DNA of 37,570 bases from Oscillospiraceae bacterium (GTDB lineage: Bacteria; Bacillota; Clostridia; Oscillospirales; Oscillospiraceae), in the NCBI GenBank assembly GCA_017516925.1, contig JAFXAQ010000041.1, forward strand, positions 1 to 37,570. The letters run 5' to 3'. Numbering within the stretch: position 1 is the first letter of the stretch; the number at the start of each line of letters is the position of its first letter. Both the position numbers and the translations under genes were made by a program. Under the pieces are notes generated by a model. It worked only from the letters and a program-made list of their open reading frames with translations. It had not been told where the DNA came from and did no database searches. Positions 4,288 through 29,216 of the stretch are shown here, one piece after another.

Positions 4288-4299
4288 TGTCGGCACCTC

Positions 4300-8013: not shown

Positions 8014-9312
8014 TTACTCCTTTTCTATCATTGGTCGAATATTCTCTACAGTGTTGTTAAGCAGGTACCAGTCTGCATCCTCCCGGTAGCCCTGAATTGC
8101 GCCATACAGGAAATAGTTCACTTCATATCCGCCACGGCAAATGGCATCCTGGGTAATAAAGTACCCTTTGGAACCGTTGGCATTGATGACAGGCAAAATC
8201 TCTGCTTCCGGAAATGCCTTGTCGATCCGCAAGCCAATCTCGCTGAACAGCTCATAAGGAAATGCCACGAGCACCACATTGTCCAGAGCAATGGCGGTCT
8301 GGAGGAAGGAATCCTCCGTTTCCTCCGGTGTGCCCTGCTCATAAGCGTTGATCACCTGCTGGGCAATGTGCTTCATTCGTCCGGACATATTAACGGTCCG
8401 TTCCTTGTACTTTTCATACATTGCCCGGGCCTCCTCCAGAGGCATCCGGGGCTGCAGCGGCGCTGCACAGGTGTTTGCGCATACCTGCAGCTGTGGGGTT
8501 TTATACTCGGCAACCTGCTCATAAATCCGGATGGCATCCTGAGCAGCCACTGCGCCCAGCTCCCGGACAAGGTCCATATTGCCTATGGTCTTGCCGTTGG
8601 AAAGTCTGGGACCGATGTCACCCTCCGGACCGTTGACAAAGGCAGTCATTGCGCCGGTTTCTGCTTCCAGTCCGTCAATCATCACACCAGCCCAATCCCG
8701 GCTGATTTGGGTGCATTGACCGGCAGCGGTACAGTGGGCGCCATAGTGAATGATGTTGGCAACGTTCTTTCCATTTTCATCCCGGAAGGACATCACCAGC
8801 ATACGGGGGTTAAAACTGCCCCATTCATTCTGACCGAGAATGATCTTATTCTCCAACGTCAGCTCCCGGCGGTTAATGCCTACGTAGCTGTTGCCGCTGG
8901 CAACACCCATGGTCACCGGCACCGGAGCCTGCATTGCCCTTTTGGCAGCGCTGAGCACCTGGGGCAGGAAAATTGTTTCAAAGTAGGGGGTATCCACATC
9001 GCCCCAGCCCACGCCGCCGGAAAGGTTCGGTCCGGAATGGGTATGGGTAGCGCAGAGAATGCAGTTTTCTCCGGGAATCCCCAGCTGCTGCTCTATGGTA
9101 TCCAGCGTCCGCTGACTGAATTCGGTACTGACTGCGCAGACCGTTGCGCTGATCAGCAGACTGACCGCATTCCCCTGCTTGAAATAAAAGGCGGTTGCGG
9201 TCAGGTCATCCGCAACACTTTCTGAGAAAATGTCCGGACGGTATCCGTAAAGCTGTCCGCCCAGCTCCGGGGTAATAATCTCCCGGGCAACGCCCAGATA
9301 TAGCGCATCCAC
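8014..9312 (-). CDS. Neutral/alkaline ceramidase-like zinc hydrolase (PF04734-like)
   Basis: The 432-residue product starts at GTG 9312, with GGGAG about 12 nt upstream; no in-frame ATG lies nearby. The N-terminus LYLGVAREIITPELGG and the metal motif CATHTHSGPNLSGG are hallmarks of the neutral ceramidase N-domain family. Further conserved points are IIHYGAHCTAAG (second His), VNGPEGDIGPR, FPYELFSEIG (Glu) and GYFITQDA followed by GGYE (Tyr), which match the expected zinc ligands. Authentic secreted ceramidases are about 650-750 residues with an Ig-like C-domain and a signal peptide; both are missing here, so the substrate may not be ceramide. It leads an operon with the GH1 gene and is divergent from an AraC gene. 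A minus-strand TATAAT sits at 9349-9354 with no good -35, as expected for an activator-dependent promoter. Confidence 0.75.
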   Translation of the reverse strand: MDALYLGVAREIITPELGGQLYGYRPDIFSESVADDLTATAFYFKQGNAVSLLISATVCAVSTEFSQRTLDTIEQQLGIPGENCILCATHTHSGPNLSGGVGWGDVDTPYFETIFLPQVLSAAKRAMQAPVPVTMGVASGNSYVGINRRELTLENKIILGQNEWGSFNPRMLVMSFRDENGKNVANIIHYGAHCTAAGQCTQISRDWAGVMIDGLEAETGAMTAFVNGPEGDIGPRLSNGKTIGNMDLVRELGAVAAQDAIRIYEQVAEYKTPQLQVCANTCAAPLQPRMPLEEARAMYEKYKERTVNMSGRMKHIAQQVINAYEQGTPEETEDSFLQTAIALDNVVLVAFPYELFSEIGLRIDKAFPEAEILPVINANGSKGYFITQDAICRGGYEVNYFLYGAIQGYREDADWYLLNNTVENIRPMIEKE

Positions 9313-9354: not shown

Positions 9355-9468
9355 GACCTATAGCGCTTAGAAAAACAGAGGGATAATTGATAATTTATTC
9401 GCAAAAATTCTTATTTATATTGCAGTTTTTTCCGCCATATGCTAAAGTATTTCCGGGGGAGTGAGGAA

Positions 9469-10278
9469 ATGCTTTACCAAAAATTGCTTATCAACAAAAA
9501 TTCCTACTTGATTTATGTTACCGAGGCCCGGAATTTTCAAATTCACCGGCACCCGGAAATTGAACTGAGCTTTTGCCTGGAGGGTTCCTACACCATTGGT
9601 GTGGGCAATACCCGCCACCGGTTGCAAAAAGGCGACCTGGCCGTGATCAATTCCATGGTCGCCCACGAGGCTTTTCAAAATGAATCCCAAGTTGGGCGCA
9701 GACTGACCATTGAGTTCGGTCCCAGCTTTTTGAAGGAGCATTTCTCCGCAGTGGCTAATTTGGACTTTGACATTGCCGTATACCATCTGCAACAAGCTGA
9801 CCCGCTACTTCCCTTATTGGAGGAGGTTGCAAAGCTGCATCAGAATCCCGGCAATTTCTCAGACTTGGTTTTGAAAGGAAATCTGTACCACATCAGCGCA
9901 AGGATTTTGCAGGAACTGCTCAGTTGTCATACCCCCGACGCTGCCAAGCAAGGCGTGCAGGAAGTTACAAAAATCGAGCAAGCTCTGGGCTTTATTTACG
10001 ACCACTACGCAGAATCGCCGGACCTTGACCGGGTATCCCAGCTGTGCGGCTACAGCAAAAGCCACTTTTGCAGAGTTTTCAAAAACATCACCGGGGACAC
10101 CTTCCACAACGTGCTCAACCGACACAGAATCGAGATCGCTTGTCTATACTTAAAAGAGAGCAACACCTCTGTGGAAAGCGTTGCGCTACAGGTTGGTTTT
10201 CCGGATGCCAAAAGCTTTTGCCGTGTTTTCAAAAAACAAACCGGAACAACCCCAAATCAATATCGCCACGCAAATTAA
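9469..10278 (+). CDS. AraC-family transcriptional regulator
   Basis: The 269-residue form begins at ATG 9469, which has GGGGGAG and GAGG close upstream; an in-frame ATG at 9439 would add 10 residues but lacks a ribosome binding site. The N-terminal cupin domain (about 15-100) has FQIHRHPEIELSFCLEG, then the KGDLAVINSMVAHE pattern of sugar-sensing AraC proteins. The C-terminal 100 residues hold two HTH units (LDRVSQLCGYSKSHFCRVF; VESVALQVGFPDAKSFCRVF) and the TPNQYR ending. It is divergent from the ceramidase-like/GH1 operon across a 156-bp AT-rich gap, so it is the likely regulator of that operon. Confidence 0.93.
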   Translation: MLYQKLLINKNSYLIYVTEARNFQIHRHPEIELSFCLEGSYTIGVGNTRHRLQKGDLAVINSMVAHEAFQNESQVGRRLTIEFGPSFLKEHFSAVANLDFDIAVYHLQQADPLLPLLEEVAKLHQNPGNFSDLVLKGNLYHISARILQELLSCHTPDAAKQGVQEVTKIEQALGFIYDHYAESPDLDRVSQLCGYSKSHFCRVFKNITGDTFHNVLNRHRIEIACLYLKESNTSVESVALQVGFPDAKSFCRVFKKQTGTTPNQYRHAN

Positions 10279-10308
10279 AAAGGGCATCCCGGAGGGGATG
10301 CCCTTTTC
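10279..10308. terminator. Bidirectional terminator between AraC gene and FGGY kinase gene
   Basis: The stem GGGCATCCC / GGGATGCCC with loop GGAG is flanked by A4 and T4. It immediately follows the AraC stop codon and abuts the kinase stop codon on the other strand, so it serves the convergent ends of both transcripts. Confidence 0.85.
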
Positions 10309-11773
10309 AATGATAAATGGGTGCCAAGGCATCGTGGATTGCCTTGTATTTGGGGAACAACTTTTCATAGATTGCCTGGTTTTCCGGGTTGGGGGTGGAA
10401 ACAGAATCAATCTCCACGCAGGTTTCCGCCGCCTCAGCAAAGCTACCGAACCAGCCGATGCCAACCGCCGCGAGCATTGCCGTACCGAAGGAGGAATCGT
10501 CCACCTTCACCTTCTGCATTTCCAGCCCCAGCACATCCGCCACTATTTGCCGCCACAGCATACCCTTGGCGCCGCCGCCGATAATTCGGACCCGCCTCAT
10601 TTCCACGCCCAATTCCTTGAGGGTGTTCAGGCAGTCCTTCAGGCTCATTGCCACACCCTCCAGGGTTGCCCGGGTGAAGTGGGCTGTGGTATGACCGGCG
10701 CTGATGCCGGTATAGCTGCCCCGCAAATCCGGGTCGTTGTAGGGTGTCAGCTCTCCGTTTAAGTAGGGATGGAACATAAGCCCCTCACAGCCGGGGGCGA
10801 TTTTTTCTGCCGGGATATTCAGGTCTGCAAAGGGTTCTCTGCCGATGGTATCCCGGTACCAGCGGTAGCTGGCAGCGCAGCTGGCGGTTGCCGTACCCGG
10901 GTACCACAGACCCGGCACCACATGGCGATAATTAAAGATAAATTTACTGTCCAGAGGCTTGTCCGTCACAATGCAGATCCGTCCTGCCGTTGCCAGCTTC
11001 ACCGTGGCATGACCCGGCGCTACATTGCCGGCGGCAAAGACCTCCATCACCGTATCGGTGGTGCCCACCAGCACCTTGGTTCCGGGGGCTAAGCCAAATT
11101 CCGTTGCCCGTTCCCCTTCTACCGTGCCAACAACGTCCGTTGGTTTACATAACTTCGGCAGCCATTCCATCCGGATATCGCAAACCCGACACAGCTGTTC
11201 AGACCAGCATTCATTTTTCACATCGTAGAACATGGAACCGGCGGCATCGATGGTATCTGTCTCCATGGTTCCGGTCATACGAAAGCGCAGATAATCCTTG
11301 GCAAAAAGGATATAACGAATTTTGCTCCAAACATCCGGTTCGTGCTTTTTAAGCCACATAAACTGGGGCAGCGTCCATACTGTGGTAGGTGCGTTCATCG
11401 CCTGCGCCATAATCATATCCAGGCAGGTATCCTTCAGCTGCTGCACTTCTGCCTTGCTGCGCTGGTCTGTCCACAAAATCGCATTGCGCAGCACCTGCTT
11501 GTTTTCGTCCAGCAAAACCGCTGTATGGGTTGCCGCATCAAAGGACAGGGCTTCTATCTGCTCCGGCTGGGCATTTGCCTCTTTCAGGATATCGGCAAGC
11601 GCCGTCTTAAAAGCAACGCACCAATCCTCCGGGTTCTGCTCACACCAGCCCACTTTTGGATAATGGGTGGGGTACTCACACCCGGCAGTGGCAGCAATGC
11701 GACCTGCCTGACTCAGCAGCGTCAGCTTTACACTGCCGCTGCCAATGTCTACACCTAATACGTATTTTTCCAT
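10307..11773 (-). CDS. FGGY-family carbohydrate kinase (xylulokinase-like), last gene of the nine-gene operon
   Basis: This 488-residue kinase is normal FGGY length. The N-terminal phosphate loop is YVLGVDIGSGSVKLTL. The first FGGY domain also has SFDAATHTAVLLDE and ILWTDQRS, and the second has the ATP-site pattern RIIGGGAKGMLWRQIVADVLG. TTDTVMEVFAAGN carries the expected catalytic-region Asp. Overall it reads as a XylB-type ketose or sugar-acid kinase; substrate is not settled by sequence alone. It starts 1 bp after the IolB-like stop codon, so it belongs to the same transcript, and a terminator follows. A second FGGY kinase at 34455 belongs to another operon, so the two probably have different substrates. 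Confidence 0.88.
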   Translation of the reverse strand: MEKYVLGVDIGSGSVKLTLLSQAGRIAATAGCEYPTHYPKVGWCEQNPEDWCVAFKTALADILKEANAQPEQIEALSFDAATHTAVLLDENKQVLRNAILWTDQRSKAEVQQLKDTCLDMIMAQAMNAPTTVWTLPQFMWLKKHEPDVWSKIRYILFAKDYLRFRMTGTMETDTIDAAGSMFYDVKNECWSEQLCRVCDIRMEWLPKLCKPTDVVGTVEGERATEFGLAPGTKVLVGTTDTVMEVFAAGNVAPGHATVKLATAGRICIVTDKPLDSKFIFNYRHVVPGLWYPGTATASCAASYRWYRDTIGREPFADLNIPAEKIAPGCEGLMFHPYLNGELTPYNDPDLRGSYTGISAGHTTAHFTRATLEGVAMSLKDCLNTLKELGVEMRRVRIIGGGAKGMLWRQIVADVLGLEMQKVKVDDSSFGTAMLAAVGIGWFGSFAEAAETCVEIDSVSTPNPENQAIYEKLFPKYKAIHDALAPIYH

Positions 11774-11774
11774 A

Positions 11775-12563
11775 TTACTTCAAAACCCAATCGTGGTCCG
11801 GGTCGTTGGTACGGTAGATACCCTGCACATCCCCAGCCATCAGCCACAAAATGTACATTTTGTAGCCCGGGGCGGTCTGGGTCAGGTGGTAACCCTTGGG
11901 GAACTCCACCAAATCATTATTCTTCACCCGATAGGTTTCGTCAATCTCCCCATCCCGGGTGTACAGGCTCTGGAAGCCATAGCCCTTTTCCTGGTCAAAC
12001 AGGAAGTAGTAAATTTCTTCTGCCTCTGCCTCCACAGGCATATTGTTTACGTCGTGCTTGTGACCGGGGTAGCCTGCCCAGTTGCCGGGCTCCACGAAGG
12101 ATTCGCCAATGGTCAGGTAGTCGGCATTGGTGTCGCCGTCAATGAGGAAGTGGGCATCCCGCTTCATAGGGGTATCGCCCAGGGTCATAATCTTGACTTC
12201 CTCCGGCTTGCGCCACTGGGGCTGGGAATCCTTGTCCGTGGGGGTATCAATCACACCGATCCGCACGTGGTTGCAGCCGGTGAAGGTAACGCTGGAGCGT
12301 CTGGGTACATAAACCGTGTGGGCAGGACCTTCAAATACAGTGGTTCTCTTGCCTACCTGCTTCCAGTCATTTTCGCCCACCTTCACGTCCGCATTGCCAA
12401 ACATAAAGATAAAGGCATATTCCTTTTCTTCCGTATTGACGGTAACGCTGTCACCCTGATTTAATTCGATAATGCCGAACTCCAAACGCTTGCAGCTGCA
12501 CTTGTCAATTTCGCACAGCTTGGTATAGCCGATTGTGGGCACATAAGACTTTTTCAAATTCAT
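11775..12563 (-). CDS. iolB: 5-deoxy-glucuronate isomerase-like cupin (IolB family)
   Basis: This 262-residue bicupin has IolB features in order: an N-terminal cupin with GDSVTVNTEEKEYAFIF, then NWAGYPGHKHD (metal-binding histidines), EEIYYFLFDQEKGYGFQ, LYTRDGEIDETYRVKNND, FPKGYHLTQTAPGYKMY and the diagnostic end NDPDHDW. IolB converts 5-deoxy-D-glucuronate to 5-dehydro-2-deoxy-D-gluconate in inositol catabolism. KduI is a related alternative but lacks this C-terminal pattern. The start overlaps the EtfA stop codon (ATGA), and its GGAGG site lies within the etfA 3' end, indicating translational coupling. No iolG, iolE or iolD gene is present in the window, so the true substrate may differ from that of classical IolB. 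Confidence 0.85.
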   Translation of the reverse strand: MNLKKSYVPTIGYTKLCEIDKCSCKRLEFGIIELNQGDSVTVNTEEKEYAFIFMFGNADVKVGENDWKQVGKRTTVFEGPAHTVYVPRRSSVTFTGCNHVRIGVIDTPTDKDSQPQWRKPEEVKIMTLGDTPMKRDAHFLIDGDTNADYLTIGESFVEPGNWAGYPGHKHDVNNMPVEAEAEEIYYFLFDQEKGYGFQSLYTRDGEIDETYRVKNNDLVEFPKGYHLTQTAPGYKMYILWLMAGDVQGIYRTNDPDHDWVLK

Positions 12564-13420
12564 AACAATTCCTCCAGTTGATTTATGATAGTCTCCCAGT
12601 CTCCCACAATGCCGTAATCGGCATACTGGAAGATAGGCGCTTTGGGGTCTTGGTTAATGGCAATCACCGTTTCCGCGCCGGACATACCGGCAAGGTGCTG
12701 TACCGCGCCGCTGATTCCCACGGCAATATACAGCCGGGGGCTGACGGTGGCGCCGGTGATGCCTACCTGGGCGCTATAGGGCGCATAGCCCAAATCCACA
12801 GCGTTCCGGGAAGCACCCAGAGCTGCGCCGATTTTGTGGGCAAAGGCTTTGAGCTTGTCAAAGCCCTCTTTGGAGCCGATACCTGCGCCGCCGGAGACAA
12901 TGATTTTTGCTTGGGTAATACCTTGGTCGCCTGTCTGCCGCTGCTGCTCTATGCATTTTACGGCATCTGAAAAGCAAGCTTCCCATTCCTCTGTCTGGGG
13001 GTATTCCCCGTTGGGGTCTGCCGGGAAGGTTCCCGGGCGCACTGTTGCCATTTGCACAGCGCTCAGGGTTTCAATGGTTGCCATCAGGCTGTTGCCGAAG
13101 GCTGGGCGGGTCTGGAGCAGCTGACCGGTCTCCGTAATTTCCAGTCCGGTGCAGTCTGCGGTAAGACCTGCCTGCAGGCGGTATGCCAACATCGGCATAA
13201 TGCACCGCAGGCGGACCGTTGCCGGGGCAAGAATCACCCGGGCATTATTTGTCTCTGCCACCAAGCCTTTGGCAATGGCAGAATCGTCTGCCGTTGCTGC
13301 TTCCGCCTTGGCAACAGAAAGAATCCGCAGCTGCAGTTTTCCTGTTTCCGCCAGCTGTGCTGCTTTGCGCTGCAAGCCCATATCCGGCCGGGTGCCCTGT
13401 ATCAGCAGTAATTCCTGCAT
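12560..13420 (-). CDS. etfA: Electron transfer flavoprotein alpha subunit
   Basis: The 286-residue protein starts at ATG 13420, with GGGGGTG upstream and TGATG overlap with the etfB stop; a longer reading upstream only covers etfB in another frame. The C-terminal FAD domain is clear: KIIVSGGAGIGSKEGFDKL, GASRNAVDLGYAPYSAQVG, TVSPRLYIAVGISGAVQHL and DPKAPIFQYADYGIVGD are the canonical EtfA signatures. The N-terminal nucleotide-binding half is somewhat shorter than in typical 310-340-residue EtfA. With EtfB it should carry electrons between a dehydrogenase and ferredoxin, NAD or the quinone pool. The adjacent FAD dehydrogenase and Fe-S genes are the obvious partners. Confidence 0.93.
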   Translation of the reverse strand: MQELLLIQGTRPDMGLQRKAAQLAETGKLQLRILSVAKAEAATADDSAIAKGLVAETNNARVILAPATVRLRCIMPMLAYRLQAGLTADCTGLEITETGQLLQTRPAFGNSLMATIETLSAVQMATVRPGTFPADPNGEYPQTEEWEACFSDAVKCIEQQRQTGDQGITQAKIIVSGGAGIGSKEGFDKLKAFAHKIGAALGASRNAVDLGYAPYSAQVGITGATVSPRLYIAVGISGAVQHLAGMSGAETVIAINQDPKAPIFQYADYGIVGDWETIINQLEELL

Positions 13421-14178
13421 CACTGCACCCCCTTTATGATACCACACAGCGCTTCCGGATTGCAATAGCTGCATTTGCGCAGCCCCGGGGCTTTGGTATC
13501 CACGTGAACCACTTTGGTCTTGGAGCCTTGCAGACCGCACTGCTCCGCCACCAGACCGATATCCGCTGCGGTCAGGATTTCCACTTGCTTATCCTTTGCT
13601 CTGCGTCTTCCCAGAATGCTGGGCAGCCGCAGGGTATAAGAATATTCGCAAAGGGACACCACACAGGGCAGCTCCACCGTCAGGGTTTCCACTGCGGTTT
13701 CCAGCAGTCGCCGGCAGGAAAGTCCGTTGTCAGCTTTTTCCAGCTGCTGCCCATTGGTCACCGCCGGAATGTCCAGGGCGGCAGCCAGCTGTCCGGGTAT
13801 CTGCCCGGTTTCCGCATCCAGCGCTCTGCGACCGCACAAAATACAGGAAAATTCCCCCAGACAGCGTACCCCGGCAGCCAGTGCCCTGGCAGTTGCCAGA
13901 GAATCCGCCCCGGCAAGGGCTCTGTCACTGAGCAGCACCACCCGGTCCACCCCCAGGGCAAACAGCTCCTGCAAAAGGGCTTCTCCCTTGGCAGGTCCCA
14001 TAGAGAGCACCGTCACCTGGGTGTCCGCCTCTTTCAGCCCCAAAGCCGCCTCCACAGCGGAAAGGTCCGCAATATTCAGTTGCAGGCTGGTGCTATCCCG
14101 CTTCAGGCGAAACTGACCGTCCAGCGCCACCTCCGCTGCCGCAGGCACCAGCTTCACACAAGCAATGATTTGTTTCAT
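13420..14178 (-). CDS. etfB: Electron transfer flavoprotein beta subunit
   Basis: The 252-residue product starts MKQIIACVKLVP, the standard EtfB N-terminus. It contains LNIADLSAVEAAL, VTVLSMGPAKGEALLQEL and DRVVLLSDRALAGADSLATA, followed by CGRRALDAETGQIPGQLAAAL, all typical of EtfB, with the nucleotide-binding core conserved. The C-terminus is unusual in carrying CSYC before the end. The ATG at 14178 has AAGGAACC upstream. A stable intercistronic hairpin separates it from the Fe-S gene. Whether it is a confurcating (FAD/NADH-type) or simple AMP-type EtfB cannot be decided without alignment. Confidence 0.92.
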   Translation of the reverse strand: MKQIIACVKLVPAAAEVALDGQFRLKRDSTSLQLNIADLSAVEAALGLKEADTQVTVLSMGPAKGEALLQELFALGVDRVVLLSDRALAGADSLATARALAAGVRCLGEFSCILCGRRALDAETGQIPGQLAAALDIPAVTNGQQLEKADNGLSCRRLLETAVETLTVELPCVVSLCEYSYTLRLPSILGRRRAKDKQVEILTAADIGLVAEQCGLQGSKTKVVHVDTKAPGLRKCSYCNPEALCGIIKGVQ

Positions 14179-14204
14179 GATAAGCGGTTCCTTATATGTT
14201 TCTG

Positions 14205-14230
14205 CCCGAAGCGGCTAATGCCGCTTCGGG
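14205..14230 (-). other. Intercistronic stem-loop between Fe-S protein gene and etfB
   Basis: CCCGAAGCGGC and GCCGCTTCGGG form an 11-bp perfect stem with a TAAT loop in the 59-bp gap, the longest gap in this operon. No U-run follows on the minus strand (CAGAAACAT), so it is more likely an mRNA processing or stability element than a terminator. Partial attenuation remains possible. Confidence 0.6.
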
Positions 14231-14237
14231 TGTAAAA

Positions 14238-15317
14238 TCAAACAACCTCGTTCAATGCGGTGTACAGGTCGACCAAGGTCATACCCTCCGGTACGCACTG
14301 GCTCAGGCACAAATATGCCTGGGGATTGGCAGTGAGCATTGCCTTTGCTTCCGTGCGGCACAGGTCAGCCCAGCGACCGGAAGCCACCTTGGTGGTAATT
14401 CCCGGCATATAGCTTAGCGCAACGGCAGTACCACAGGATTTTGCCAACCGTTCCTTGTTGAACATCTCCGTCAGGGTATAGCCGGCTGCCTTGGCAATAT
14501 CACGCACAGGGGCAAACTCATGGAAGCTACGTGCCAGACGGTCATCGTCGTGGCAAGCGCCTGCGCCCTTTGCTTCTGCCTTGGGGGTGAGCTTGCCATC
14601 TTCCAGCAGCTTTGCCACATAAGCGGTAGCCGTAACCACCTCTGCCTTAATCTCGCAGCCCCACTCGGCATAATGCTGCTTCATAATTTCCGCATCATAG
14701 CTGTCCAGCACCACCACAGTGGGAAGACCGGTTGCGTTGATAGCATCTGCGCAGGACTTCGCCTGGTCGGTAACCTCCTGCACGTAGCCCATGAGGTCAG
14801 CGAGCATCATACCGGAGGCAGGCTCACAGTCCAGCACCTTGGCGCTGACACCGGCCTTTTTCAAAAGGCGCAAATATGCCTTTGCCATTTCCGGCACTTT
14901 GCAAGCTGCCACTTCGCCAATGTACACCAGCACATCGGTGCCGTCCTGACCAAAGGAGGGCTTTTCTGCGCCGTAAATATTGCCGCTATTTTCGATATTT
15001 TCAATGCACTGCATAACCGCTGCAGGCGCCAAATCGTTGACAACAGCCTCGGTTCTTGCCTCCCGGATAAACAGCGGGGGCTGATAGCCGGTGCAGCAAT
15101 CGTTGACACAGGCATCGCAGAGCATACACTCATACATCGCCTTTGCCATATCCTTATCAAATTCTGCCGTACCCTTGGAGAGCATACTCAGCAGCAAGCC
15201 CTTTGCCCGGGGGGTATTCAATTCCTTGCCGGTCTGGTGCTGCACAGGGCACAGATGACGGCACATCCAACAAAAACGGCACTTTTCCGCATGCTGTAAA
15301 GCTTTTTGACTTACCAT
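14238..15317 (-). CDS. Fe-S electron-transfer subunit (GlcF/GlpC/HdrD-like, CCG domains partly degenerate)
   Basis: The 359-residue protein has two N-terminal 4Fe-4S motifs, CRFCWMCRHLCP (about 13-24) and CMLCDACVNDC (about 64-74), as in GlcF, GlpC and HdrD. Two CCG-type (cysteine-rich) repeats follow. The second, around HDDDRLARSFHEFAPVRDI, EMFNKERLAKSCG and LCLSQC, retains the pattern, but the CC of CCG is reduced to SC, and the first repeat is poorer still. Loss of CCG cysteines suggests it carries electrons without the noncubane 4Fe-4S chemistry of HdrB/HdrD. AGGAGG precedes the ATG. It lies between the FAD dehydrogenase and etfBA and probably bridges them. Confidence 0.85.
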   Translation of the reverse strand: MVSQKALQHAEKCRFCWMCRHLCPVQHQTGKELNTPRAKGLLLSMLSKGTAEFDKDMAKAMYECMLCDACVNDCCTGYQPPLFIREARTEAVVNDLAPAAVMQCIENIENSGNIYGAEKPSFGQDGTDVLVYIGEVAACKVPEMAKAYLRLLKKAGVSAKVLDCEPASGMMLADLMGYVQEVTDQAKSCADAINATGLPTVVVLDSYDAEIMKQHYAEWGCEIKAEVVTATAYVAKLLEDGKLTPKAEAKGAGACHDDDRLARSFHEFAPVRDIAKAAGYTLTEMFNKERLAKSCGTAVALSYMPGITTKVASGRWADLCRTEAKAMLTANPQAYLCLSQCVPEGMTLVDLYTALNEVV

Positions 15318-15332
15318 TTCCCTTACCTCCTC

Positions 15333-16763
15333 TTACAGACCCATCTTGTAGGGGTTCATAATGCCGTTGGGGTCCAGCTTTTCCTTCAGGGCCTGCAACA
15401 CCTGCAGGGCAGGACCGTACTGCTCCTTCACCAGCCGGGACAGCTTCAAGCCGACACCGTGGTGGTCATTGAGCACGCCGCCATTTGCCAGGGCAGCCCG
15501 GACACCGGCATTCCAAATCTGGTTATGTACTCGCAGCGCTTCCTCAGAATCGGCGGGCGGGTTATCGATAATAAACCGGGAGTAGTTCATTGCGCCCCAG
15601 TCATACCAGTGGGAGCTATGGGAAATGAAGCGGACACCGTACTGGCTGAAATTGTCCTCTACGGCAGACTTCATTGCCCGGTAAATCTTCTCAATGTTAT
15701 CGTGGGTTGCCACAGTATCCAACGTGCCGAACATCTGGGGCAGGTCCATAATATGGTCGGGATAGAAGAAGGTAATCCGGTTTTCAAACCACTTTTCGCC
15801 GTACTCGGTGCCCAAATCCTCTGCGCCGTACTTTTTGGCAATCTCCAGAACAATCTCCAGCTCCGCATCCACGATTTTCTGATAGCCCTCCAAAGTCAGG
15901 TTCAGGAAGGAGCCCTTCTTGGCAAAGCCGATAATTTTCTTGATGATGGAAACGGTTTCCGCCTCATCAAACAGACGGACAATGGAGGGCTTCACCGCCT
16001 GGACAATCTCCCGGCAGGCCTGATAGCCCTCGTGGATATCCGGGAACAGGAATGCGTGGTGGATACGAACCTCAGGCTGCTTCACAATCTTGAAGGTGCA
16101 CTTGGTCATAATACCCAGGGTGCCCTCAGAGCCCAGGAAGAAGGGAATCAGGTTCGGACCGGAGGAATGCTTAGGTACCGGCAGGGTGTTGATGATGTCG
16201 CCATTGGGCAGCACCACCTCCAGACTCAGGCACATATCGTCCATTTTGCCGTACTTGGTGGACAAAATACCGATGCCGTTGTGAGCCAGGGCGCCGCCGA
16301 CGGTGCAGCAGGTCATACAAGAGGGCAGGTGCATCACGGAGTAGCCCTTCTCGTTGACGTAGTCCTCCAGGGTTGCGAAAATCATACCGGTTTCGCAGGT
16401 GACGTGACCGGCTTCCACATCCAGATTGATCAGCTTGTCCATCCGCTTCATATCCAGCAGGATGCCCCCGGCAACCGGCAATGCGCCGCCCTGACTGCCG
16501 GAGCCGCCGCCCCAGGTAGTCACAGGGATTTTATAATAGTTGGCAATCTTCATCACCTTGGAAACTTCCTCGGTGGAGCCGGGACGGACGATGATTTCCG
16601 GCATAGGACCTTCCTCGCCTGCATCCTGCCACTTACGGCTCAGCCAGAAATAGTCAACGGAATATACCGCACGCTCGGTCTTGCCGGTGGACACGTTTTC
16701 CACGCCCACCGCATCCTCCAGCTCGGAGCAGATCATCCGGAACATCAGAGATTTCTCTTGCAT
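15333..16763 (-). CDS. FAD-binding dehydrogenase, GlcD / AGPS / D-lactate dehydrogenase type
   Basis: This 476-residue flavoenzyme has an N-terminal PCMH-type FAD domain with EIIVRPGSTEEVSKVMK, WGGGSGSQGG (pyrophosphate loop) and SCMTCCTVGGALAHNGIG, followed by STKYGKMDDMCLSLEVVLPNG. The C-terminal FAD-oxidase domain ends in LNDHHGVGLKLSR and LDPNGIMNPYK, matching the catalytic-His EHG/HHG motif and closing signature of GlcD, LctD and alkyl-DHAP synthase homologues. These enzymes oxidise 2-hydroxy acids. With etfBA and an Fe-S gene next door, it resembles the dehydrogenase of ETF-dependent lactate dehydrogenases such as Acetobacterium LctBCD. The sugar genes around it suggest a polyhydroxy acid or polyol substrate (inference). 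GGAGG precedes ATG 16763; an out-of-frame ATG sits 5 nt upstream. Confidence 0.88.
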   Translation of the reverse strand: MQEKSLMFRMICSELEDAVGVENVSTGKTERAVYSVDYFWLSRKWQDAGEEGPMPEIIVRPGSTEEVSKVMKIANYYKIPVTTWGGGSGSQGGALPVAGGILLDMKRMDKLINLDVEAGHVTCETGMIFATLEDYVNEKGYSVMHLPSCMTCCTVGGALAHNGIGILSTKYGKMDDMCLSLEVVLPNGDIINTLPVPKHSSGPNLIPFFLGSEGTLGIMTKCTFKIVKQPEVRIHHAFLFPDIHEGYQACREIVQAVKPSIVRLFDEAETVSIIKKIIGFAKKGSFLNLTLEGYQKIVDAELEIVLEIAKKYGAEDLGTEYGEKWFENRITFFYPDHIMDLPQMFGTLDTVATHDNIEKIYRAMKSAVEDNFSQYGVRFISHSSHWYDWGAMNYSRFIIDNPPADSEEALRVHNQIWNAGVRAALANGGVLNDHHGVGLKLSRLVKEQYGPALQVLQALKEKLDPNGIMNPYKMGL

Positions 16764-16777
16764 AACATTTTTCCTCC

Positions 16778-17440
16778 TTAATCAATTGGGTTGATTACCC
16801 AGTTTTCACCGTAGATGCCGGGTACTGCGCCCCGTTGCACCAGAGATGTGTTGTCTTCGTGGGCAATAAGCCACTTGTTTTTTGCCCAAAGCAAGCCCTG
16901 CTTCCGGTCTTCCAACGGCAGGTTTGTGCCACGCTGCAGCCCCACAATGCTGGAAAAACCGTTTTTGGTCACTTCACAGGGACAGAAATGCAGGGTATCG
17001 GAATACACCTCCACCATTTGACCTTGGGCAAGGTAGAATGCCTTAATTTTGCTGGCATCCAATCGACCGTCCGCATCCAGATCGCTGCGCTTGGCAAGCA
17101 GCAGTACCAGCTCCCGGACAGCCACATTGAACTCGTTGCAGGTGTGCCACTCCAAAGCGTTCAGCTGCTTGGAATGTCCAAAGCACAGACCGATCTGCTC
17201 ATCCAGCTGACCGCACAGCCCTTGCCGCAGGTCTGCCGCCTCCGGCAGCGCCTCCAGCTCGGGCACCGAGGCTAAGTATTTGCTGCCTTCTTCCGGAAAC
17301 GTCACCGCCGCCTCTGCTGTTTCGCAGAAGGCCTTGGTGTCCATCTCCACCACCCGTCCGTAAGGCTTAAAAGCCGGGTCTTGGACAGCGTAAATGGCAA
17401 TATGGGGGTTTGCCTTTTGCAGCGCTTTCAGCTTATCCAT
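16778..17440 (-). CDS. DUF4867-like cupin-type protein of sugar operons
   Basis: The 220-residue protein opens MDKLKALQKANPHIAIY, then VQDPAFKPYGRVVEM, and contains LGFGHS-like LCFGHSKQLNALEWHTCNEFNVA and VYSDTLHFCPCEV. This agrees with my memory of the DUF4867 family, which occurs beside sugar kinases and class II aldolases in Firmicutes. The layout, with two short beta-rich halves and a histidine/glutamate-rich centre (GHSKQLNALEWH), suggests a single cupin fold related to ureidoglycolate-lyase-type proteins. The function is unknown; a sugar isomerase or mutarotase role would suit the context. The start overlaps the PfkB stop codon by 8 nt, so translation is coupled. GGGGGTC precedes the ATG. 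Confidence 0.7.
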   Translation of the reverse strand: MDKLKALQKANPHIAIYAVQDPAFKPYGRVVEMDTKAFCETAEAAVTFPEEGSKYLASVPELEALPEAADLRQGLCGQLDEQIGLCFGHSKQLNALEWHTCNEFNVAVRELVLLLAKRSDLDADGRLDASKIKAFYLAQGQMVEVYSDTLHFCPCEVTKNGFSSIVGLQRGTNLPLEDRKQGLLWAKNKWLIAHEDNTSLVQRGAVPGIYGENWVINPID

Positions 17441-18353
17441 CGCAAATGACCCCCTTATTTTCTTTCATAAACTGCAGCACCTCGTCAAAGCCGGGAATGC
17501 CCTCCTGGGCACCTACCCGGGTGCATTTCAGGGCAGAGGTGGCAGAGGCAAAGGCTGCTGCCTCGGAAACTTCCATTCCCTTGACCCGGGCGGCAACGAA
17601 GGCGCCGTGGAAGGTATCCCCTGCGCCGTTGCTGTCCACCGCTTTCACCGGGAACACCGGGTAACGCACAGCTTTTCCGTTTTCCCAGATAAAGCCGCCC
17701 TTGGAGCCCTGGGTGATAATCAACACCTCCGGGTGATACATCTCATACAGCTTTGCCGCCGCTTCCTCAGCATTTTCGCAGCCGGTGAATTTCAGGGAAA
17801 ATTCCTCCGAGGGAATCAGCACATCCACCAGCGGCAGCAGCCGGTCAATCCCGGGATAGGGGGCGCCTGCATCCAGGCTGACCTTCACCCCGAATTCCTT
17901 TGCCTTTTGGGCGGCATACACAGCGCAGTCCAGCTGGTGTCCGTCCAAATGGAGATATTTGGCATTTTGCAAAACCGTCAGGTCCACATCCGACGGCTGG
18001 GGCGGTGTGACCGTTCCCCGGTTCCACACGCAGGTGCGGCTGGCATTGGAGGTATTCAGCAGCACAACACTATGGAACGATTGCGCTCCCGGAATCACCC
18101 GGATATGACTGCCGTCCACACCGTAGGTTTCAAAAGCGGTGCGGATATGATTGCCATACATATCGTCACCCACAGTACCGATATAGCCGCTTTTTACCCC
18201 CAGCTTACGCATTGCCACCAGACCGGTGGCGCAGGGACCGCCGCCCTGGAGCTTGGTTTGCGCGCTTTGCTGTTTGGTGTCCTCTTTGGGGTAGCTGTCC
18301 ACCGTCATCAGAACATCCAGAACCGCTGCGCCGATACCCACTACCTGTACCAT
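17433..18353 (-). CDS. PfkB-family sugar kinase
   Basis: The 306-residue kinase starts at ATG 18353, preceded by GGGAGC; an in-frame upstream ATG lies inside the aldolase gene and lacks a site. The PfkB signature 1 is GGGPCATGLVAMRKLG (about 37-52), and signature 2 is DSNGAGDTFHGAFVA (about 240-254) with catalytic base D246 and the anion-hole GAGD. It sits one base after the class II aldolase stop codon, the same pairing as kinase and aldolase in the tagatose, sulfofructose and inositol (IolC/IolJ) pathways. Because IolB is in the operon, an IolC-like 5-dehydro-2-deoxygluconokinase role is the first hypothesis. The family is too varied to assign by eye. Confidence 0.88.
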   Translation of the reverse strand: MVQVVGIGAAVLDVLMTVDSYPKEDTKQQSAQTKLQGGGPCATGLVAMRKLGVKSGYIGTVGDDMYGNHIRTAFETYGVDGSHIRVIPGAQSFHSVVLLNTSNASRTCVWNRGTVTPPQPSDVDLTVLQNAKYLHLDGHQLDCAVYAAQKAKEFGVKVSLDAGAPYPGIDRLLPLVDVLIPSEEFSLKFTGCENAEEAAAKLYEMYHPEVLIITQGSKGGFIWENGKAVRYPVFPVKAVDSNGAGDTFHGAFVAARVKGMEVSEAAAFASATSALKCTRVGAQEGIPGFDEVLQFMKENKGVICDG

Positions 18354-18354
18354 A

Positions 18355-19173
18355 TCAGTCTGCTCCCAACAGCTTAATTTTTTCAATGGCAAATGCCTTG
18401 ACTGCCTTCACAGGCTCCTTCATAAAGGTGTCGATGCCGATGATGCTGGGGTCCACGGTACGGACCGTGTCCAGGAAAGCGCAGCAAAGGTCGGTACCGA
18501 AGTTGACCTTGCGGATACCGGCTTCGATGGAAGCACGGATTTGGTCATCGGGTACGCCGCTGCCGCCGTGGAGCACCAGATGGGTGTCCAATGCCTTATG
18601 CAGCTCGGCAATTCTCTCCAGCGCCAGCACCGGCGCCTGCTTGTAGTGACCGTGGGCAGTACCCACCGCCACAGCCAGCGCTGCCACGCCGGTTCCCTCT
18701 ACAAATTGGGCAGCATCCTCCACGGTGGTGTAATCGGTGCTGACGCCGTCCTTGGCAAAGCCAACGTGACCCAGCTCGCCTTCTACGGATACACCCATCT
18801 CCTTTGCCATATCCACCACAGACTTGGTAATGGCAATATTCTTCTCCAAGTCTTCTTTGGAAGCATCGATCATCACACCGGTGGCGCCGTAACGCAGGGC
18901 ACGGAGTACCTGGGGCACACCGGCGCCGTGGTCCAGATGGAACGCAGCAGGCACGTGCATGGTGTCCACTGCCTCCATGATAGCCGGGGCAACGAACCGG
19001 GCCAGGTCTGCATCAAACAGACGGCTGTACATCTGGAAGATTACCGGCGCGCCGGTCTCCTCCGCAGCCTCCATAACGCCCATCACCGTCTCGGTGTTGT
19101 AAACATTGAACGCAGGGATAGCAAAGCCCCCGGCTTCGCCCAGCTCCAAAATCTCTTTCAAATCATAACGCAT
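18355..19173 (-). CDS. Class II fructose-bisphosphate-type aldolase (GatY/IolJ/FbaA family)
   Basis: The 272-residue zinc aldolase starts at ATG 19173 behind AAGGAG; an in-frame extension upstream runs through the promoter and is rejected. The zinc and catalytic features are AAFHLDHGAG (D81, H82), VEGELGHVG, GTAHGHYK (H174) and LVLHGGSGVPD (H202). KVNFGTDL forms the phosphate-binding end. It cleaves a ketose 1-(bis)phosphate or related acid phosphate to DHAP plus an aldehyde. The first gene of the operon, it is directly followed by a PfkB kinase. IolJ-type activity (releasing DHAP and malonic semialdehyde) is suggested by the IolB homologue in the operon; tagatose- or fructose-type activity is equally possible from sequence. 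Confidence 0.92.
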   Translation of the reverse strand: MRYDLKEILELGEAGGFAIPAFNVYNTETVMGVMEAAEETGAPVIFQMYSRLFDADLARFVAPAIMEAVDTMHVPAAFHLDHGAGVPQVLRALRYGATGVMIDASKEDLEKNIAITKSVVDMAKEMGVSVEGELGHVGFAKDGVSTDYTTVEDAAQFVEGTGVAALAVAVGTAHGHYKQAPVLALERIAELHKALDTHLVLHGGSGVPDDQIRASIEAGIRKVNFGTDLCCAFLDTVRTVDPSIIGIDTFMKEPVKAVKAFAIEKIKLLGAD

Positions 19174-19372: not shown

Positions 19373-20212
19373 ATGGAACAAACACTCAGCAAAATCCGCA
19401 ATTTGTATGATACGCTCGGTCGGGGAGAACGAAAAATTGCCGACTGGCTTCTGGCGCACCCGGCTGAGCTGATCAGCCTGTCCATCAGCGAGGTGGCGTC
19501 TGTTTGCGGCTGCGGCGACGCAACCGTTATCCGGTTTGCCAAGCGGCTGGGCTTAAGCGGCTATCAGGAGCTGAAAATCAACGTCGCCCGGGAAATGGGC
19601 GGCAACCTCACCGGCAATCTGGCTTTTTCTCCGGAAGACACGGTGATGGACGTGTATAACAAACACATTGCCGATATCAAAATTACATTGGATGAAACCC
19701 GGGCATATTTAAACCCCACCGCTATGGAGCAGAGCGCAGAGGCGCTGCGCAATGCCCGGTCCATTTCCATCATCGGCTTGGGCAACTCCGCCCCCATTGC
19801 CCAGGACGCTGCCCACAAATTTCTGCGGGCAGGACTGCCTGCCAGCGCATATTCAGACAATCATATGCAAATGATTGTCACATCCCATCTGGGACCGGGG
19901 GATGTGGTGATGGCCATTTCCCACTCCGGCTCCTCTGTGGACATCGTTTCTGCATTGGAACGGGCAAAAGCCAACGGCGCCACCACCATTTGCATCACCA
20001 ACCACGGCAAGTCCCCCGTGGACAAGCACAGTGATTATCTGCTCTACACCAACGCCCAGGAGACCAAATACAGCATTCTGGCTATGACCTCCCGGATTGC
20101 CCAGCTGGCGGTGATTGACACCCTTTACAGCTATATCGTCATCCGTGGCGGCGACACCATTTCTCAGGCAATCCACTCCACGGAGGAAGCGCTGGAAAGC
20201 AAAAAATACTAA
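19373..20212 (+). CDS. MurR/RpiR-family transcriptional regulator (HTH + SIS)
   Basis: The 279-residue protein has GGGAGG before its ATG. The N-terminal HTH_6 domain (about 1-77) includes GRGERKIADWLLAHP, ISEVASVCGCGDATVIRFAKRLG and GYQELKINVAREM. The C-terminal SIS domain (about 120-250) has SISIIGLGNSAPIAQD, ISHSGSSVDIVSALERAKANGA and TICITNH, which bind sugar phosphates. It is divergent from the nine-gene operon; three CATTCTATCA-type repeats lie between, so it most likely represses that operon and is released by a phosphorylated pathway intermediate. It is followed by the aldose epimerase 11 bp downstream. Confidence 0.94.
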   Translation: MEQTLSKIRNLYDTLGRGERKIADWLLAHPAELISLSISEVASVCGCGDATVIRFAKRLGLSGYQELKINVAREMGGNLTGNLAFSPEDTVMDVYNKHIADIKITLDETRAYLNPTAMEQSAEALRNARSISIIGLGNSAPIAQDAAHKFLRAGLPASAYSDNHMQMIVTSHLGPGDVVMAISHSGSSVDIVSALERAKANGATTICITNHGKSPVDKHSDYLLYTNAQETKYSILAMTSRIAQLAVIDTLYSYIVIRGGDTISQAIHSTEEALESKKY

Positions 20213-20223
20213 GGAGTATCATT

Positions 20224-21102
20224 ATGGGCTTATTTACCATTCAAAACGAAAGCTTGACGGTTATTTTGGATTCTGTAGGTGCGGTACTGCACAGCATTCA
20301 AAAGGACGGTGCGGAATACCTCTGGCAGGGTGACCCCACCTATTGGAAGCGCCGGGATGCCAACCTGTTTCCTTATGTGGGACGGCTTACTGACGGGAAA
20401 TACTTGCTGGACGGCAAGCACTATCCTATGACCATCCACGGCTTTTGCATCGGCACAGAATTTGCCGTAACGGAGCAGACGGAAGCTTCGATACGTTTCA
20501 CCCTGAAAGACAGCGAAACCACTTATGAAATGTACCCCTTCCATTTTGCCTTTCACGTGATTTATCAGCTGGAGGGCAGCGCCATTGTCAAAACCTGCCT
20601 GGTGGAAAACCGGGACACCCGGGAAATGTTCTTCGGCATCGGCGGACATCCCGGCTTTCAGGTGCCTCTGGGGGGCGACGGCAGCTTTGCGGACTGGAAG
20701 CTGGTCTTCCACAAGCCCTGTAGCCCCACCCGCATTGACTTTGACCCCAGTAACTACCGTCTTTCCGGCACCACCTCAGCCTTCCCCCTGGAAAACGGCA
20801 CCACAATCCCCCTGAGACACGAGCTGTTCGATTTGGATGCGGTGGTGCTGCAGGACACCTCCCGGACAGTCACCATCTGCTCAGAAAAATCTCCGCGTTC
20901 TGTTACAGTAGCTTATCCGGACTGCGGCTTTGTGGGTCTGTGGCATGCTCCCAAAACCGATGCGCCCTATGTGTGTATCGAGCCATGGGTCAGTCTTCCC
21001 TCCCACAGCGCTTATATAGAGGACCTGTCCAAACAGGAACACATCATTCACCTTCCCCAGGGGGAAACCTACCGCAATATTATGACCATTACCTTGGGCT
21101 AA
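20224..21102 (+). CDS. Aldose 1-epimerase family protein (LacX-like)
   Basis: This 292-residue galactose-mutarotase-fold protein shows LWQGDPTYWKRRDANLFPYVGR, MTIHGFC and MYPFHFAFHVIYQL (conserved histidines), GIGGHPGFQVPL and CIEPWVSLP, where the Glu corresponds to the catalytic base of aldose epimerases. These features and length fit the LacX subgroup of Firmicutes, which interconvert sugar anomers and are linked to tagatose-type pathways. No signal peptide is present. An AAGGAG site precedes the ATG. It shares a transcript with the RpiR regulator and probably feeds the neighbouring kinase/aldolase operon. A strong terminator follows. Confidence 0.9.
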   Translation: MGLFTIQNESLTVILDSVGAVLHSIQKDGAEYLWQGDPTYWKRRDANLFPYVGRLTDGKYLLDGKHYPMTIHGFCIGTEFAVTEQTEASIRFTLKDSETTYEMYPFHFAFHVIYQLEGSAIVKTCLVENRDTREMFFGIGGHPGFQVPLGGDGSFADWKLVFHKPCSPTRIDFDPSNYRLSGTTSAFPLENGTTIPLRHELFDLDAVVLQDTSRTVTICSEKSPRSVTVAYPDCGFVGLWHAPKTDAPYVCIEPWVSLPSHSAYIEDLSKQEHIIHLPQGETYRNIMTITLG

Positions 21103-24220: not shown

Positions 24221-24250
24221 CGCCCCGAGATGCTCTCGGGGCGTTTTTTT
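24221..24250 (+). terminator. Terminator between AraC gene and KDPG-aldolase-like gene
   Basis: CGCCCCGAGA / TCTCGGGGCG forms a 10-bp stem with a 3-nt loop followed by T7 on the plus strand. The stop codon of the aldolase on the other strand lies at its edge, so the convergent transcripts share it. Confidence 0.92.
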
Positions 24251-24887
24251 ATCGAATTTTTTCCGTGTGACGACGGGCATTTTCCCGGATGGTATCCAAA
24301 TCTCCCTTTTCTGCCAGTTCCGGAGTCACGATAGTCACACCGGCTGCCAGTGCCGTAGCACCGGTGGCAAGGAATTTTTCAACCGTATTGGGATTGATGC
24401 CACCTGTGACCATAAAGGGAATGTGAGAAAGGGGTGAGATCACATTTTTCAGGTAGCCTTCTCCGTCCGGCAAAATGGGGAATATTTTCACCACATCCGC
24501 ACCTAATTGATACGCACGCATAATTTCCGTCGGAGTGTAAGCACCGGGGATCGACAGCAGTCCCTTTTTCTTGGTAAATGCAATCACCTGCTCGTCGGTG
24601 TTGGGCGCTACAATAAACTGCGCACCGGCTTCCCAAGCCGCCTGTGCGTGTTCTACGCACAGCACTGTGCCTGCGCCTACACTGACGTCCGGTCCAAAAT
24701 GCCCACGCAGCTGCCGAATAATCGACCCGGTCTCCTGCGCCGTAGTCTCCCGTCTGGGGTCAAAGGTAATCTCAAAAATGCGGATGCCACCCTCGTACAT
24801 TGCCTGGGCTGCAGGCAATGCAACCTCCGGACGGATGTGGCGCAAAATTCCCACAAAGCGGTGTTTTTTCAAAAGCTCTATACTCAT
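24249..24887 (-). CDS. eda: KDPG / KDPGal-type aldolase (2-keto-3-deoxy-6-phosphogluconate aldolase family)
   Basis: This 212-residue class I aldolase has the family layout: RFVGILRHIRPEVALPAAQAM, FEITFDP with general-base E39, VGAGTVL, FIVAPNTDEQV, IPGAYTPTEI, VVKIFP with Schiff-base lysine K134, and MVTGGINPNTVEKFLATGA. The position equivalent to the substrate-carboxylate arginine after the base (ExxxR in Eda) is D43 here, with arginines two and three residues later, so substrate preference may be altered. The start overlaps the dehydratase stop codon by ATGA, giving translational coupling. It would split the deoxy-keto acid made by the dehydratase into pyruvate and an aldehyde. No KDG kinase is in this operon. 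Confidence 0.9.
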   Translation of the reverse strand: MSIELLKKHRFVGILRHIRPEVALPAAQAMYEGGIRIFEITFDPRRETTAQETGSIIRQLRGHFGPDVSVGAGTVLCVEHAQAAWEAGAQFIVAPNTDEQVIAFTKKKGLLSIPGAYTPTEIMRAYQLGADVVKIFPILPDGEGYLKNVISPLSHIPFMVTGGINPNTVEKFLATGATALAAGVTIVTPELAEKGDLDTIRENARRHTEKIR

Positions 24888-26068: not shown

Positions 26069-26074
26069 AATCAC

Positions 26075-26833: not shown

Positions 26834-26852
26834 TTTCCTTCCTCCTTTTCTT

Positions 26853-26938
26853 ACTTATAATATTTTATCATCACCTTTCCCCTTTCCAAATACGTAATTT
26901 TATCATATTCCCGTTACAAACTTACAATATTTTATCAT
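26853..26938 (-). repeat. ATGATAAAAT repeat array upstream of the SDR operon
   Basis: Two 19-nt direct repeats differing at one base occupy 26853-26871 and 26920-26938. The minus-strand core ATGATAAAAT recurs at 26862-26871, 26897-26906 and 26929-26938, spaced 35 and 32 bp, about three helical turns. The array lies 20-105 bp before the SDR start codon, suggesting regulator binding sites. Confidence 0.65.
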
Positions 26939-26945
26939 TCTGCTT

Positions 26946-26992
26946 TGTGCAAAAAAATACACCCCAAAAGTGTTTCGCTTTTGGGGTGTATA
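26946..26992 (-). terminator. Terminator of the alpha-galactosidase gene
   Basis: ATACACCCCAAAAG and CTTTTGGGGTGTAT form a 14-bp stem with a 7-nt loop, 4 bp beyond the GH36 stop codon. On the minus strand a run of seven T residues follows. Confidence 0.9.
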
Positions 26993-26996
26993 TTGC

Positions 26997-29150: not shown

Positions 29151-29187
29151 ATGGACACCTCTTCTGTCAGGCAAGTATTCTATGCTT

Positions 29188-29216
29188 ATTCTAGCTTTTT
29201 CCCCAGCCTGTGTCAA
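29188..29216 (-). promoter_or_regulatory. Promoter of the alpha-galactosidase gene
   Basis: TTGACA (29211-29216) and TAGAAT (29188-29193) are 17 bp apart on the minus strand. It is close to full consensus. Confidence 0.82.

Follow-up and report, generated by a model that had tools for sequence, protein, structure and literature searches.

A conserved nine-gene operon of Oscillospiraceae that apparently joins sulfoglycolysis- and inositol-type parts to an ETF-linked, AGPS-like flavin dehydrogenase

Several described systems share parts with the operon reported here, a run of nine minus-strand genes from an Oscillospiraceae bacterium. The operon is located in a window of 37,570 nucleotides, the whole stretch of DNA analysed (assembly GCA_017516925.1, contig JAFXAQ010000041.1). 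Its redox genes can be compared with the Acetobacterium woodii complex Ldh-EtfAB (LctBCD), a flavin dehydrogenase bound to an electron-transferring flavoprotein (ETF). Unlike in that complex, two of the three metal ligands are missing from the operon dehydrogenase, a separate EtfD/HdrB-like iron-sulfur (Fe-S) protein is present in place of the ferredoxin domain of EtfA, and the genes of the complex sit in a sugar operon. Sulfoglycolysis of the sulfo-Embden-Meyerhof-Parnas types (sulfo-EMP and sulfo-EMP2; SftI/SqvD, DUF4867, YihV, SqiA) likewise uses an SftI-family isomerase, a DUF4867 protein and a PfkB kinase near sulfofructose kinase. The PF01116 aldolase is shared with sulfo-EMP2, where it acts on a ketose-1-phosphate. 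In contrast to sulfo-EMP, the SftI-like protein of the operon type is far under the cut-off for sulfoquinovose isomerases, the PF14833 reductase family is found in just two of 23 genomes with the operon, and IolB, an FGGY kinase and the ETF-linked dehydrogenase are added. The Bacillus subtilis-type set IolB-IolC-IolJ also brings together an IolB-family isomerase, a PfkB kinase and a class II aldolase; here, however, IolD and IolE are below cut-off in the 17 genomes searched, and ribokinase and sulfofructose kinase are nearer relatives of the PfkB protein than IolC is.

Two further systems resemble the dehydrogenase and the FGGY kinase. Alkyl-dihydroxyacetone phosphate synthase (AGPS) makes ether lipids without net oxidation. 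It shares an HHG motif with the operon dehydrogenase, and the (A/S)HxSHxY motif is also present in Dictyostelium AGPS, whereas mammalian AGPS has no AHxSH motif and the operon enzyme is accompanied by Fe-S and ETF proteins. GlpK and the anaerobic GlpABC presumably form a similar arrangement, an FGGY kinase paired with a flavin adenine dinucleotide (FAD) dehydrogenase and a CCG-fold Fe-S subunit. The operon differs from it by an FGGY kinase without the R83/E84 pair, a different flavoprotein family and a putative ETF acceptor. The operon is apparently a conserved, undescribed sugar pathway that joins sulfoglycolysis- and inositol-type parts to an ETF-linked, AGPS-like flavin dehydrogenase. No description of this gene combination was found in the open-licence literature, in agreement with an earlier reading of the DNA made without database searches (the sequence-only reading), which knew of no pathway with this set.

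The unbroken nine-gene operon of that reading is confirmed: all open reading frames, their order and their families were found as listed, from position 19173 down to 10307, according to Pfam and NCBIfam. The intergenic spacings from the aldolase to the FGGY gene are +1, −8, 14, 15, 59, −1, −4 and 1 bases, measured with PfkB and EtfA starting at the first Met. The source genome is an assembly of 67 contigs (1.65 Mb, 83.6% complete). The genes are as follows.

18355–19173, minus: class II aldolase (PF01116); retains the Zn and catalytic residues but has another residue in place of the C6-phosphate Arg
17433–18353, minus: PfkB-family sugar kinase; top solved relatives are ribokinase and sulfofructose kinase YihV
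16778–17440, minus: DUF4867 cupin (PF16161 by Pfam, SftX/SqvB family); proposed role in ketose ring-opening or as mutarotase
15333–16763, minus: GlcD-type FAD dehydrogenase (FAD_binding_4 and FAD-oxidase_C); AGPS-like motifs SHxSHWY and DHHG
14238–15317, minus: Fe-S protein (Fer4_8); CxxCxxC present twice, fold like that of EtfD/LutA/HdrB, CCG motif absent
13420–14178, minus: EtfB; closest relatives are beta subunits of bifurcating ETFs, with LctB at the top; Ala122 stands where the bifurcating type has Gly
12560–13420, minus: EtfA, ETF alpha subunit with the FAD-binding domain present
11775–12563, minus: IolB/KduI-family isomerase (PF04962), above the TIGR04378 cut-off
10307–11773, minus: FGGY carbohydrate kinase, xylulokinase-like, without the XylB or GlpK pocket motif

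Conservation of the operon

The GlcD-type dehydrogenase (GlcD) was used as the query. In the order, 17 of 394 genomes, counting the source genome itself, matched at E ≤ 1e-150; they fall in 14 of 168 genera. Among 398 sampled genomes of the phylum, three matched at E 1e-130 (own genome and two others). The operon dehydrogenase was also found in three named Oscillospiraceae metagenome-assembled genomes from goat and water buffalo cecum, and in G793, a genome of the same genus as the source. The same-genus search matched at least one of 24 other genomes, which is a lower bound because our own protein fell short of the limit of that search; in the order-wide search, none of the four other same-genus genomes listed matched. 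As matches occur in few genomes of the genus, the spread of the operon is patchy. The 17 genomes of the order, two of the phylum, three named genomes and one of the same genus make up 23 operon genomes. Since the operon is conserved across these 23 genomes, a chance arrangement is excluded, and the neighbourhood extends well beyond the single strain that would have spoken against the sequence-only reading.

Gene counts over the 23 genomes were taken from the tblastn table. GlcD is present in 23 by selection. The Fe-S protein is found in 23 (only 54 residues in G506), FGGY and the aldolase in 22 each, PfkB in 21 and IolB in 21, with a 49-residue remnant of IolB in G370 and none in G140. ETF is found in 18, and four of the five genomes without it are cut by a contig or stretch end; the fifth, G405, has no ETF in its 19.9 kb. 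In the examined stretch, an SftI-like protein is encoded in 13 genomes, a NagB-like protein in seven and a NagA-like protein in six (one partial), and DUF4867 and aldose epimerase were found in six and five (own genome included). Some operon genes of G786 and G215 sit on a second contig. The duplicate loci L057 and L059 were excluded from the counts. Residue counts given below cover 21 of 23 genomes for GlcD and the Fe-S protein (G215 and G793 excluded; the GlcD of G793 carries the same motifs), 20 of the 22 aldolases found (without G140 and G793), 20 of 21 PfkBs (without G793), 19 of the 22 FGGYs found (without G106, G506 and G793) and 15 of 18 ETFs (without G127, G042 and G793).

The order common among the relatives is SftI-like, GlcD, Fe-S, aldolase, PfkB, IolB, FGGY and EtfBA. 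In most relatives (L018–L032), EtfB and EtfA are fused into a protein of about 460 residues, which is shortened at the EtfB N-terminus (except in L018) and before the FAD domain of EtfA. The loci with separate ETF genes (the window, L034, L035 and L036) form one clade in the dehydrogenase tree, and L018 with its fused ETF is the sister. The operon of L031 (G370) is decayed; PfkB is gone and the aldolase and IolB are short remnants, with the other genes intact.

The flavin dehydrogenase, its redox partners and the FGGY kinase

The motifs [AS]HxSHWY and [DE]HHG are present in 21 of 21 operon GlcDs (SHxSHWY and DHHG in the window). They are close to those of Dictyostelium AGPS, and the best PDB sequence matches are AGPS structures (2uuu, 4bby). 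The sequence-only reading had proposed that an LctD-like enzyme oxidises a hydroxy acid. At the positions of the LctD metal ligands H377, H384 and E422, the first His is kept, the second His is replaced by Met, and the Glu is replaced by His in all 21 proteins, whereas His-His-Glu is kept in three of three control dehydrogenases. By this metal site, a plain lactate or glycolate dehydrogenase is unlikely, and that part of the sequence-only reading is not borne out. The operon GlcD has the overall fold of the LctD-type D-2-hydroxyacid dehydrogenases. No sugar-phosphate dehydrogenase was found among the 50 matches listed, which excludes nothing.

Two CxxCxxC motifs are present in 20 of the 21 aligned Fe-S proteins. 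The predicted structure (predicted local distance difference test score 94) matched EtfD of Mycobacterium smegmatis best (E 2.9e-15, template-modelling score 0.80 by query length, root-mean-square deviation 4.9), followed by LutA and HdrB. The C-terminal CCG motif occurs only in L043 and L044, and the window protein has SCG at 294. Thus, of the earlier label "CCG-type", the fold stands and the motif does not. The five PDB matches of EtfB at E ≤ 1e-20 are LctB, Acidaminococcus fermentans EtfB, CarD, Clostridioides difficile EtfB and 7koe, which we take to be a bifurcating ETF as well. By sequence, the window ETF is nearest LctB and other bifurcating ETFs; together with the ETF-type Fe-S partner predicted by the model, this agrees with the LctBCD/bifurcating kind assumed earlier. 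A Gly at position 123 of A. fermentans EtfB marks bifurcating ETFs according to an excerpt of the source (PMC12630350). The equivalent residue is Gly in 13 of 15 aligned ETFs; the window and L035 have Ala, whose side chain is small as well.

The FGGY protein of the window scores 433 bits against the TIGR01312 cut-off of 380, and that of L022 is under the cut-off. All 19 aligned operon FGGYs carry ATHT (PTHT in L043) and (S/T/M)TDT..E. The pocket motifs QMHG and DNAAG-type of Escherichia coli XylB are not kept in any of the 19, and the R83/E84 pair of GlpK, which we take to be pocket residues, is absent from all of them, the window included. Glycerol kinase activity was rejected because this pair is lost. 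GlcD and FGGY are also paired in four alphaproteobacterial plasmid records, where no genes for IolB, PfkB, the aldolase or the SftI-like protein are annotated nearby, in gene tables that are incomplete; three of the four plasmid kinases have the SDxxxE-type motif of the operon FGGYs.

Sugar-splitting genes and the SftI-like isomerase

The Zn ligands and the catalytic Asp of E. coli FbaA are kept in 20 of 20 aligned operon aldolases. R331 of FbaA, in the DPR motif, presumably holds the C6 phosphate. This Arg is present in E. coli GatY, in FbaA and in a fragment of the genome's own housekeeping fructose-bisphosphate aldolase. At its position, 19 of the 20 operon aldolases have Asp and one has Gly, counted in the GatY column, as the DPR of FbaA falls in an insertion. 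A fructose- or tagatose-bisphosphate route was rejected on the loss of this Arg. The top solved relatives of PfkB are ribokinase (130 bits) and sulfofructose kinase YihV (126 bits). We assume K27, N109 and R138 to be the functional residues of YihV; K27 is kept in 20 of 20 operon PfkBs and R138 in none. In the seven NagB-like proteins, D72, H143 and E148 of E. coli NagB are kept, D141 is Asn, and R172, K208 and two phosphate-loop residues are lost. R172 and K208 are taken here to bind the 6-phosphate, and canonical deamination of glucosamine-6-phosphate was rejected because these residues are lost. The residue losses in the aldolase and the NagB-like proteins and the kinship of PfkB point to sugars that carry no C6 phosphate and would be phosphorylated at C1, then split to dihydroxyacetone phosphate (DHAP) and an aldehyde without phosphate, the pattern of sulfo-EMP2 and of the late inositol pathway. 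Members of PF14833 are found in two of the 23 genomes and in one of the 13 with a completeness of 90% or more. This family presumably includes the reductases of tartronic semialdehyde and sulfolactaldehyde; thus neither aldehyde is an easy fit.

In two relatives, a DUF6259 protein (about 985 residues) and a protein like N-acetylmuramic acid-6-phosphate etherase (565–586 residues) are encoded between PfkB and the NagB-like gene (L055 12168–16840, L056 10240–14911). The families were assigned from L055, and the L056 copies are 71% and 64% identical.

DUF4867 corresponds to SftX/SqvB of sulfoglycolysis, a metal-binding cupin to which the excerpts of the sources ascribe no proven activity, and its genes frequently neighbour FucI-family isomerases and FGGY kinases (PMC11968277, PMC9594981, PMC13219744, PMC12890257). 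IolB is above the TIGR04378 equivalog cut-off (223 against 205 bits). The sequence-only reading had placed the late steps in an inositol-type route. IolD and IolE were searched in 17 of the 23 genomes, and none of the 17 is over either cut-off; the inositol pathway was therefore rejected. Three weaker IolD matches (214–227 against 715 bits) say little, as this search also matches 14 of 14 control genomes, three of them over the cut-off. One weak IolE match (77 bits) was found in G140, and the own genome is 84% complete.

Beside the operon of many relatives, a protein of about 465 residues is encoded, without a Pfam match in the three tested. The L022 protein distantly matches the sulfoquinovose isomerase SftI (94 bits against the NF048012 cut-off of 700). 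With a threshold of 440 bits, chosen once the scores were known, the SftI-like subfamily is found in 15 of the 394 genomes scanned in the order. Of these, 14 belong to the 17 operon genomes, and the other is G093, which holds a contig-truncated piece of the operon cluster. At E 1e-60, it is found in 15 of the 17 operon genomes and 18 of the 377 others. These counts ignore phylogeny. A match is present in 17 of the 23 operon genomes, including cases on another contig. The window genome's own copy is on contig C28 and shares 81% identity with the copy in G269, a genome of a different family. Because the subfamily co-occurs tightly with the operon, the pathway probably includes an aldose-ketose isomerase of this kind, and isomerisation by IolB alone, as first read, is doubtful. 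On the same contig, the SftI-like gene adjoins a distant homologue (24%) of a ceramidase-like protein of the window (L073 10591–11811).

Proposed pathway, alternatives and flanking genes

From the gene content, conservation, co-occurrence and residue losses observed, we infer every reaction, the substrate and the order of steps. With a probability of roughly 0.4, the locus is a catabolic operon not described before, composed of two modules and serving an unusual sugar of the hexose type. In module B, the SftI-like protein, with DUF4867 and aldose epimerase, would open an aldose without 6-phosphate and isomerise it to the ketose; some relatives may also obtain this ketose from an N-acetylamino sugar via the NagA-like and NagB-like proteins. 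PfkB would phosphorylate C1 of the ketose, and the aldolase would cleave the ketose-1-phosphate to DHAP and an unphosphorylated aldehyde. In module A, the FGGY kinase and the AGPS-like dehydrogenase would act as a pair. The kinase would phosphorylate a polyol or ketose and the dehydrogenase would oxidise the product, with electrons passing to the EtfD-like Fe-S protein and then to the bifurcating-type ETF. IolB may isomerise the aldehyde and so link the modules, or may be a second entry. Herbivore cecum is the source of all three named relatives, so that an uncommon dietary or glycan-derived sugar may be the substrate.

Some results weigh against this proposal. The fold comparison ranks mouse D-lactate dehydrogenase first (highest Z), with LctD level with AGPS, and so speaks for a plain lactate or glycolate dehydrogenase. 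In 13 of 20 operon aldolases, an Arg is located five residues before the DPR position, which leaves some doubt about the lost phosphate contact there; the window protein does not have it.

Two modules for two compounds in one operon is a somewhat unlikely arrangement. IolB, PfkB and the aldolase, with the SftI-like protein, would serve one sugar, and FGGY, GlcD, Fe-S and ETF an unrelated, often co-occurring polyol or ketose. The plasmid records with GlcD and FGGY apart from annotated module B genes favour it, as does G370, which keeps FGGY, GlcD, Fe-S, ETF and the SftI-like gene after losing PfkB and most of IolB and the aldolase; no chemistry yet joins both modules. In many relatives, however, the module B genes stand between GlcD-FeS and FGGY-ETF, which is odd for independent units. 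The route of the sequence-only reading seems improbable. In this form of it, an LctD-like dehydrogenase with ETF oxidises a polyhydroxy acid or deoxyhexuronate-like compound, IolB and PfkB isomerise and phosphorylate the product in turn, and cleavage follows the late inositol pathway, to DHAP and malonic or tartronic semialdehyde. The order of steps in that reading (oxidation, isomerisation, phosphorylation, splitting) may still hold. The IolB score, the adjacency of IolB, PfkB and aldolase in many relatives, the loss of the C6-phosphate Arg from the aldolase (a change that a uronate-type substrate would require), the ETF nearest LctB and a GlcD fold close to LDHD and LctD agree with it. The metal ligands lost in 21 of 21 dehydrogenases and IolD and IolE below cut-off do not; the beta-hydroxyacid dehydrogenase family that presumably reduces tartronic semialdehyde is in only two of 23 genomes, and the SftI-like and FGGY genes are left unexplained.

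That GlcD-FeS-ETF is a D-lactate dehydrogenase, acting on lactate released from a lactyl sugar such as N-acetylmuramic acid, is distinctly improbable. The LctB-like ETF, the highest fold Z, the NagB-like and NagA-like genes (7 and 6 of 23) and the etherase-like protein of two genomes would suit it. Against it, the metal site is lost, the tested etherase-like protein falls short of its cut-offs (at best 137 bits where 168 are required), and the route through N-acetylmuramic acid-6-phosphate does not fit because the NagB-like proteins have lost the 6-phosphate residues. A sulfo-EMP-type operon for sulfoquinovose is very improbable in spite of its SftI-like, DUF4867 and aldose epimerase genes, a PfkB close to sulfofructose kinase, a PF01116 aldolase and a glycoside hydrolase family 31 (GH31) protein in one relative. 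That GH31 protein is closest to alpha-xylosidase and below cut-off. Sulfoquinovose as the substrate was rejected on the SftI-like score, the loss of R138 (its role presumed) in all 20 PfkBs and the scarcity of PF14833, the family of sulfolactaldehyde reductase, of which 21 of 23 genomes have no member.

Returning to the two-module proposal, its chances are a little short of even in the following form: a new anaerobic sugar catabolism of two connected parts. In the first, the phosphate of a sugar or polyol, and not a free 2-hydroxyacid, would be oxidised by a kinase-paired AGPS-like dehydrogenase together with the EtfD-like protein and a bifurcating ETF; the second would be an aldolase route through ketose-1-phosphates that handles sugars lacking a 6-phosphate. 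This second route would be fed by a new aldose isomerase subfamily and by deacetylase and deaminase relatives, the latter without 6-phosphate residues. The ETF complexes in the literature and structures consulted act on lactate, acyl-CoA or enoyl-CoA, and a link to sugar splitting would widen the range of bifurcation in fermenters. The proposal also gives a testable home to three poorly assigned families: FGGY-paired AGPS-like dehydrogenases (also in alphaproteobacteria), DUF4867 and the SftI-like subfamily, which across the 394 genomes scanned is found only with the operon or a piece of it.

The operon is bounded by two plus-strand regulator genes, AraC and RpiR.

19373–20212, plus: RpiR/SIS regulator, divergent; homologue in the examined stretch of 5 of 22 other genomes
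20224–21102, plus: aldose 1-epimerase adjoining the RpiR gene; in 4 of 22 other genomes, the operon itself contains relatives of it
9439–10278, plus: AraC-family regulator downstream of the operon

A promoter-like site is located 82–110 bases upstream of the aldolase; as 14 such sites were found in the region against 6.4 expected, single sites mean little. Upstream of the operon of L057 (G787; 9482–12374), a ThuA-like protein and two Gfo/Idh dehydrogenases are encoded, one of which is closest to levoglucosan dehydrogenase, below cut-off. This group of genes hints at 3-keto-glycoside chemistry. On the minus strand of the window (24249–29216) are a short-chain dehydrogenase/reductase, an enolase-family dehydratase, an aldolase of the 2-keto-3-deoxy-6-phosphogluconate type and a glycoside hydrolase of family 36 (GH36). 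The same set adjoins the operon in L055, where the dehydratase is 91% identical to that of the window and GH36 just 29%, and in L034 without GH36 (69%). The ceramidase-like protein mentioned above (PF04734, under the Pfam cut-off) is encoded near the operon at 8014–9312. A 533-residue protein without a Pfam match (2695–4296) adjoins two Opp-type permeases and is possibly the binding protein of that transporter.

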